DNA from: Methanolobus zinderi
Lineage (GTDB): Archaea > Halobacteriota > Methanosarcinia > Methanosarcinales > Methanosarcinaceae
NCBI RefSeq assembly: GCF_013388255.1
Contig: NZ_CP058215.1
Coordinates: 186,001 to 250,000 of the forward strand
Reading direction: 5' to 3'
DNA: 64,000 bases
Both the position numbers and the translations under genes were made by a program. Within the stretch, counting starts at the first letter, position 1, and every line of letters begins with the position of its first letter. The notes under the pieces were generated by a model that searched no databases, was not told the origin of the DNA, and saw only the letters and a program-made list of their open reading frames with translations. Of this stretch, positions 13,388 to 14,828 are shown in pieces.

Positions 13388-13480
13388 ATGTCAATCAAGA
13401 AAAGCAACGGAAGCAGCTGGATACTCGAATTTCTGGGATTCTAGGAAATGATAAAGAAAAGGTCTTATCCAAGGAGCTGA
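13388..13480 (+). CDS. Candidate UAG-containing leader peptide ahead of pylS
   Basis: ATG 13388 follows AAGGAAGG, a good ribosome site. The frame encodes 18 residues ([18 protein letters not shown]) up to TAG at 13442-13444. If the amber is read as pyrrolysine, 11 more codons follow to TGA at 13478-13480, four bases before the pylS ATG. Those last codons (CCA AGG AGC) overlap the pylS ribosome site AAGGAGC. Termination at TAG leaves that site free; readthrough brings ribosomes onto it. That geometry is seen directly; its use as a sensor of charged tRNA-Pyl is inference. I know of no matching peptide family. Confidence 0.55.
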
Positions 13481-13484
13481 AAGC

Positions 13485-14828
13485 ATGGAGAGAAAGCCAT
13501 TAGACTCATTAATATCCAAAAACGGCCTCTGGGTGTCCAGAAACGGACGTCTCCACGGGATAAAAAGCTGTGAGGCATCACATAAGAACCTGCGTATAAC
13601 AATGGATTGCGGAGAAGTAGTAAAGGTGAGAAATTCCCGATCTAGCAGGGCTGCAAGGTCTCTGCGAAACCGCAAATTCCAGAAACCCTGCAAAAGATGC
13701 CGCGTCCCGGAAGAAAAAATAAAAGAATTCTCAAGGAAGATCTCAAAGAACGAGGTCAAAGTATCGGTCAGGACCGTACCTTCTTCTCAATTCAATTCAT
13801 ACGAAAATAAAATACCTGATATGGCGTTGCCGTCCGAGAATACACTACATGAACCGGTAAAACCAGTTCAGGCATCTACACCTGCTGTTTCTGCAAAACA
13901 GACCCAAAAACAGACAAAAACTGCTGCTGCAAAAACATTCGTACCGCAGCCACGCACAAAAAAACCCAAGGTAAAGAAATCCGGAAATCACTCTTTCCAG
14001 AAACCTGCCAAAGCTTCAAAGCCGCAATTCACCCAGAGCCAGAAGAACAGGATACTTTCTTTGCTCGGACCCGGGGAGATGATATCATTCTCAAAGGAGA
14101 AACGCTCCTTTGCCGAACTTGAATCCGTACTTAGCACAGAAAGAAAGAAAGATATCAGACAGATGTACGAAGACAGCCGTGAGAACCTGCTTGGAAAACT
14201 TGAGAGGACAATTACAGAATTCTTCGTGGACATGGGTTTCCTTGAGGTTAAATCTCCGATACTCATTCCCTTCGAATACATGGAAAGGATGGGGGTCGGT
14301 GAGGATAAGAAACTATCCGAGCAGATATTCAGGGTAGGAGATAACATGTGCCTGCGCCCCATGCTTGCACCGGGTCTGTACAACCACCTGCGCAAATTCG
14401 ACAACGTATTACCGGACCCCGTGAGGATATTTGAAATAGGACCCTGCTACCGTAAGGAATCAGACGGCAGCAGCCACCTCGAGGAGTTCACCATGCTCAA
14501 TTTCTGTCAGATGGGATCCAGATGTACACGAGAGGAACTTGAATTTATTATCGATGAATTCCTGAACTTCCTGGATATAGACTACGAGATCGTGGCTGAC
14601 AGCTGTATGGTCTACGGCGAGACCATGGATGTCATGCACAAGAACCTGGAACTCTCTTCCGCTGTTGTGGGACCAATACCCATGGATATGGACTGGGGTG
14701 TCGATAAACCCTGGATAGGAGCCGGTTTCGGCCTTGAGAGATTGCTGAAGGTCAAACATGATTTCAAGAACATAAAGCGTGCTGCAAGGTCAGAGTCGTA
14801 CTACAACGGAATCTGCACGACCCTGTGA
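13485..14828 (+). CDS. pylS: Pyrrolysyl-tRNA synthetase PylS
   Basis: A class II aminoacyl-tRNA synthetase of 447 residues that charges tRNA-Pyl with pyrrolysine. The N-terminal PylSn tRNA-binding domain (about 1-75) has the zinc-site residues in LHGIK and CKRCRV. A basic, low-complexity linker (about 90-190, rich in K, P, T, Q) leads to the catalytic domain with [20 protein letters not shown] and [16 protein letters not shown] lies eight bases before the ATG, inside the readthrough part of the upstream leader ORF. It is the first enzyme gene of the pylSBCD operon. Confidence 0.97.

Follow-up and report, generated by a model that had tools for sequence, protein, structure and literature searches.

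In Methanolobus zinderi, the gene for pyrrolysyl-tRNA synthetase, pylS, is preceded by a short open reading frame (ORF) with an in-frame TAG. We propose, with a probability of roughly 0.6, that this ORF is a UAG-gated translational leader on the pylS mRNA, which senses UAG decoding. The cell would thereby probably gauge its own reading of UAG to set the level of PylS. The window analyzed here is a stretch of 64,000 nucleotides (contig NZ_CP058215.1, positions 186,001 to 250,000), and coordinates refer to the window unless a contig position is given. The relevant features are:

13217..13224, + strand: predicted TATA box of pylS, TATAAATA, 24 nt 5′ of TATATATATATGCCGA (spacing recurs across Methanolobus)
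13241..13256, + strand: TATATATATATGCCGA element, which probably overlaps or borders the transcription start (present in 28 of 32 Methanolobus-type loci)
13373..13380, + strand: Shine-Dalgarno sequence of the leader ORF, AAGGAAGG (from the sequence)
13388..13441, + strand: part of the leader ORF before the TAG, with the core NWxLxYLGF (from the translation and the codon-position pattern)
13442..13444, + strand: in-frame TAG, proposed decision codon between pyrrolysine and stop (from conservation in relatives)
13445..13480, + strand: readthrough extension, its TGA 4 nt 5′ of pylS (from the coding pattern in codons 1–5)
13472..13476, + strand: Shine-Dalgarno sequence of pylS, AGGAG, within the readthrough extension (from the sequence; kept in most relatives)
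13485..14828, + strand: pylS, pyrrolysyl-tRNA synthetase, 447 aa (ORF; PylS N- and C-terminal models over cut-off)

Organization of the pylS leader

The leader ORF has the same orientation as pylS. It starts with the ATG at 13388 and runs for 18 codons to the TAG, which stands 40 nt 5′ of the pylS start codon; 11 further codons lead to the TGA at 13478–13480, and the four bases AAGC separate this stop from the pylS ATG at 13485. The codons behind the TAG cover AAGGAGC, the ribosome site of pylS. On recheck, the positions that the first-pass annotation had assigned to the ORF, the TAG, the TGA and the pylS site were all correct. PylS itself is intact in the window, followed in order by pylB, pylC and pylD, and its nearest named counterpart is that of Methanolobus sp. 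UBA118 (98% identity). The genome of the host consists of a single contig of 2.70 Mb. No tRNA-Pyl gene lies within the 64-kb window; it is found at contig positions 182840–182911, about 3 kb before the window start. A matching layout, with pylT remote from pylS, is reported for M. psychrophilus (PMC5378194). A search of the host genome for further copies of the leader ORF or its peptide returned only the pylS locus.

Across Methanolobus, the predicted TATA box is separated by 24–25 nt from a conserved TATATATATATRYCGA element and is located 190–250 nt 5′ of pylS. The region from 13217 to 13256, comprising the TATA box and TATATATATATGCCGA, is likely the promoter and start region of pylS, perhaps with a site for a regulator; TATATATATATGCCGA has a single match in the host genome. 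Since the TATA box lies 5′ of the leader ORF, the pylS transcript should include this ORF. A transcription start downstream of 13388, named in the first-pass annotation as an argument against a leader, finds no support in this promoter anatomy. Both the Shine-Dalgarno sequence and the ATG of the ORF are conserved, and the predicted promoter precedes the ORF at constant spacing, as expected of an upstream ORF.

Conservation and coding pattern of the leader ORF

For comparison, pylS upstream regions were taken from named records and from about 100 loci within the family. Methanolobus, ANME-3-like sequences and Methanomethylovorans together form clade A (37 sequences, SH-aLRT 99 on the PylS tree). 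In all members (37/37), an ATG-initiated ORF of 16–18 codons precedes pylS, and its closing TAG lies at a distance of 40, 41 or 43 nt from that gene. An AGGAG/GGAAG-type site is found 5′ of the leader ATG in most relatives. The peptide core NWxLxYLGF is kept throughout clade A, with the W and the G each present in 36/37 sequences, and its codons vary at the third base. Counted as the fewest changes on the PylS tree, the part before the TAG has undergone 34, 40 and 81 changes at codon positions 1, 2 and 3, respectively (permutation P = 0.0003, to be taken as a guide only because columns are few and close relatives are non-independent). This pattern of selection at the protein level is the one expected of a translated leader.

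A similar signal extends beyond the TAG. In the first five codons behind it, positions 1, 2 and 3 have changed 20, 7 and 33 times (permutation P = 0.0008, with the same reservation), and over seven post-TAG codons the ratio of amino-acid to codon changes is 0.63 in frame compared with 0.85 and 0.86 in the other two frames. Thus the frame 3′ of the UAG also bears the mark of protein-like selection, which is what passage of ribosomes across the UAG would lead one to expect. A restart codon just 3′ of the UAG was considered as well and rejected, since many sequences have ATG or TTG as the second codon behind the TAG, but others have TTA, CTG, ATT or ATC there.

The leader TAG shows no change on the PylS tree, and wobble positions show 1–10 changes each. 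The stop codons used as controls on the same tree are also nearly static, with one change for pylS and two for pylB. Because other stops of the operon rarely change, the invariant TAG is by itself weak evidence, and we dropped the constant stop type as sole proof of UAG sensing. Nor is a single ORF ending in TAG remarkable, because TAG ends 12 of the 59 long ORFs (about 20%, stop usage being estimated from the 64-kb window only). It is conservation, not lone occurrence, that lifts the leader ORF above chance.

The first-pass annotation had made its proposal depend on whether the ORF and its TAG recur in close relatives. This held for the clade-A sequences, in which both are kept in all 37 cases; Methanosarcina, also named there, is without the leader. 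The underlying idea, that the leader is translated and its UAG is positioned to sense pyrrolysine decoding, is consistent with this conservation and with the selection on both sides of the UAG. As a separate observation, Methanolobus vulcani PL 12/M has two different pylS copies (L126 and L128), each at a contig end and both with a TAG leader.

UAG codons at pyl junctions in other genera

The UAG also recurs before pylS in genera whose upstream ORFs are unrelated to that of Methanolobus. All 11 Methanococcoides loci have an 8-codon ORF, MK[C/Y]FAIGA-TAG, which ends 4 nt 5′ of pylS and contains the pylS ribosome site. All eight Methanohalophilus loci share another unrelated ORF with a four-codon start, a TAG, five codons and a second TAG; these TAGs are fixed at –58 and –40 despite diverged surroundings. 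One further genus (L045/L183) shows MNK-TAG before pylS. Within clade A, Methanomethylovorans has two in-frame TAGs at –44 and –23, 21 nt apart, followed by a TGA overlapping the pylS ATG. The UAG is therefore kept as UAG in clade A (37/37), Methanococcoides (11/11) and Methanohalophilus (8/8), a count to be read with the static behavior of other operon stops in mind. A conserved TAG ORF before pylS was not found in Methanosarcina (26 leaders), Methanimicrococcus, Methanosalsum, Methanohalobium and others. UAG leaders of pylS thus come in three or more unrelated sequences, which suggests that they arose repeatedly or turn over rapidly, with the UAG as the sole constraint.

The leaders without a conserved TAG ORF include those of Methanohalobium (L095, L096) and Methanosalsum (L046, L064). 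In Methanosalsum, pylT is located directly 5′ of pylS, and one short ORF (METDKK) has a TGA overlapping pylS. Genome G203, from another family, contains two genes for the PylS C-terminal domain (L193, L194), neither with a TAG leader, and a tRNA-like sequence stands directly 5′ of one of them.

A second junction with a conserved UAG lies between pylB and pylC. In 29/29 loci from Methanosarcina, Methanococcoides, Methanohalophilus and allies, a single nucleotide separates the TAG that ends pylB from the start codon of pylC (TAG-N-NTG). The loci of this type are L100, L138–L165, L173–L177 and L183. The tree shows no change of this TAG, whereas it shows six for the stop codon of pylS in these loci, none of which has TAG there. 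In Methanolobus and Methanomethylovorans, the usual arrangement is instead a TGA that overlaps the start of pylC; the window (at 15924) has no pylB-TAG-N-pylC junction. Judged by this arrangement, the pylB/pylC boundary is a possible second UAG-gated junction.

Every lineage examined carries a UAG at one or both junctions, except for Methanimicrococcus, Methanosalsum, Methanohalobium and Methanofrustulum, a suggestive distribution. We consider the odds about even for a general rule, according to which users of pyrrolysine set UAG codons at translational junctions of the pyl operon. The junction concerned is the one before pylS in Methanolobus and Methanomethylovorans, the pylB/pylC boundary in Methanosarcina, and both in Methanococcoides and Methanohalophilus. 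The expanded code would then regulate itself via the reassigned codon, and the several UAG leaders of pylS may represent independent origins.

Proposed mechanism and competing explanations

Folding of 30 Methanolobus-type leaders against shuffled sequences revealed no more structure than in the shuffles, with a mean z over 27 loci of +0.34 for the region –110..+40 and +0.41 for –45..+40. No Rfam family was detected in the leader; the lone match is weak and sub-threshold and lies inside pylS on the opposite strand. A hairpin switch is therefore unlikely, and an RNA switch of the T-box or attenuator type was rejected on the same grounds. Given this lack of excess structure and the TATA box 5′ of the ORF, the sensor should be the ribosome itself. 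The pylS leader of Methanosarcina is conserved and more structured than shuffles (mean z –1.8, 26 leaders); its last 160 nt contain several CCGGG boxes and no TAG ORF (L036–L054, L076, L084, L086, L087). The pylS gene of this genus is possibly under a different, RNA-based control.

According to our model, a ribosome would initiate at 13388 and arrive at the UAG, where Pyl-tRNA and release factor contend. Such a competition, with no mRNA motif required, is how pyrrolysine insertion is described in the literature (PMC9499178). If Pyl-tRNA is scarce, the release factor would terminate translation at the UAG, leaving the pylS ribosome site free, and PylS would be made. If Pyl-tRNA is plentiful, the UAG would be read as pyrrolysine and the ribosome would move across the ribosome site of pylS and, in most relatives, also across the pylS start codon in another frame, allowing less new initiation. 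The UAG-reading enzyme would thus be tuned to the efficiency of UAG reading, with negative feedback in most genera. Pyrrolysine insertion at the leader UAG, the resulting change in pylS translation and its negative sign are predictions from the nucleotide sequences. We also count the conserved UAG 1 nt before pylC, found in genera without the Methanolobus leader, as favoring a UAG-gated leader; the counterpoint is the absence of a TAG leader before pylS in Methanosarcina, Methanimicrococcus, Methanosalsum and Methanohalobium.

The sign of the feedback depends on where readthrough ends. None of the conserved TAG leaders has its readthrough frame in register with pylS, and in most Methanolobus-type loci this frame ends inside pylS, at +20..+136, as it does in Methanococcoides (+89) and Methanohalophilus (+89 or +122). 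Since ribosomes that read through would pass the pylS ATG in another frame in most genera, readthrough should cut initiation and hence act as negative feedback. In six of the 30 loci L001–L030, including that of the window, and in all Methanomethylovorans, the end point falls between –16 and +4, a position that could allow positive coupling. For the window and four relatives the end lies at –4; in all Methanomethylovorans the stop overlaps pylS as ATGA. In the window strain, readthrough would stop at the UGA 13478–13480, which makes the sign of the feedback least certain there.

These end points bear on an explanation of opposite sign, in which pyrrolysine readthrough reaches a UGA next to the pylS ATG, the ribosome restarts there, and PylS becomes proportional to Pyl-tRNA in a self-switching-on loop. 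The geometry of the window, its four relatives and Methanomethylovorans would suit such a restart, and engineered positive-feedback circuits of this type reportedly exist (the work of Kato in 2018, cited in PMC11363022). Most Methanolobus, Methanococcoides and Methanohalophilus sequences, however, end readthrough 20–136 nt inside pylS, mostly too far for a restart at the ATG, and the free variation of this end point speaks against its being the selected feature; we regard positive coupling as improbable, though it is the strongest of the competing explanations. Somewhat less probable still is a small pyrrolysine-containing peptide with a function of its own, whose place before pylS reflects operon organization only. 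The coding signal before and after the UAG and the conserved core NWxLxYLGF-O-E agree with it, but indels behind the UAG shift the frame within Methanolobus (TAG at 40, 41 or 43 nt), sister genera retain the UAG and not the peptide, and the ORF is found at one place in the host genome.

Alternatively, the nascent peptide could stall the ribosome at the UAG as a slow stop, in the manner of bacterial leader peptides, without pyrrolysine being the signal. The strongest conservation indeed falls on the nine residues beside the stop, as expected for an arrest peptide, but coding selection goes on past the UAG; moreover, other genera combine the UAG with unrelated peptides, and some ORFs contain it twice, so that we give this reading little credence. 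The least credible explanation, already disfavored, is a chance or relic ORF whose stop merely happens to be TAG: the share of TAG among stops of the window and the static operon stops would allow for it, but neither the codon-position pattern before and after the TAG nor the recurrence in several genera with unrelated sequences would be expected.

Relation to known systems and significance

In its logic, the proposed leader appears closest to the autoregulation of release factor RF2, in which bacterial prfB uses a programmed frameshift at an in-frame UGA (PMC12421855). In both, a decoding factor would set its own level through the codon on which it acts, early on its own mRNA, and the type of stop codon is kept almost without exception. 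The two differ in that prfB employs a frameshift inside the gene and senses the release factor, whereas the pylS leader is a separate UAG ORF, the competitor is Pyl-tRNA and the gene encodes the synthetase. Membership in the prfB type was rejected, since the separate ORF has no frameshift motif joining two frames of one gene.

Bacterial genes for aminoacyl-tRNA synthetases of the pheST type are controlled by leader peptides via RNA hairpins and transcription termination. They resemble the present case in that a short leader translated ahead of a synthetase gene contains a key codon read by the cognate tRNA, but the Methanolobus leader lacks such structure and its key codon competes with termination. 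In the synthetic amber-dependent positive-feedback circuits that Kato is said to have built, UAG readthrough likewise gates expression with an orthogonal pair, but these circuits are engineered and positive by design. The genes mtmB, mtbB and mttB also carry an in-frame UAG in organisms with pyl genes; there, the UAG lies inside an enzyme, unlike in the 30-codon leader that overlaps the ribosome site of the next gene.

Neither a pylS leader nor a UAG feedback is described in the passages found in open-access reviews and papers on pyrrolysine, and the statement of the first-pass annotation that it knew of no described case holds within that literature. The leader would represent autoregulation of a decoding factor through its own codon and, as far as those open-access papers go, the first natural one with a reassigned codon.

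If the model is true, a single base change from UAG to UAA in the leader should alter the control of PylS, and pyl operons transferred without their leaders may lose this control. The leader would also offer a natural feedback design for PylRS/tRNA-Pyl systems, of use to genetic-code engineers. Within the open-access literature searched, it would be the first natural reassigned codon to serve as a sensor of its own reassignment, and it would answer the standing question of how organisms with a dual-meaning UAG balance suppression.
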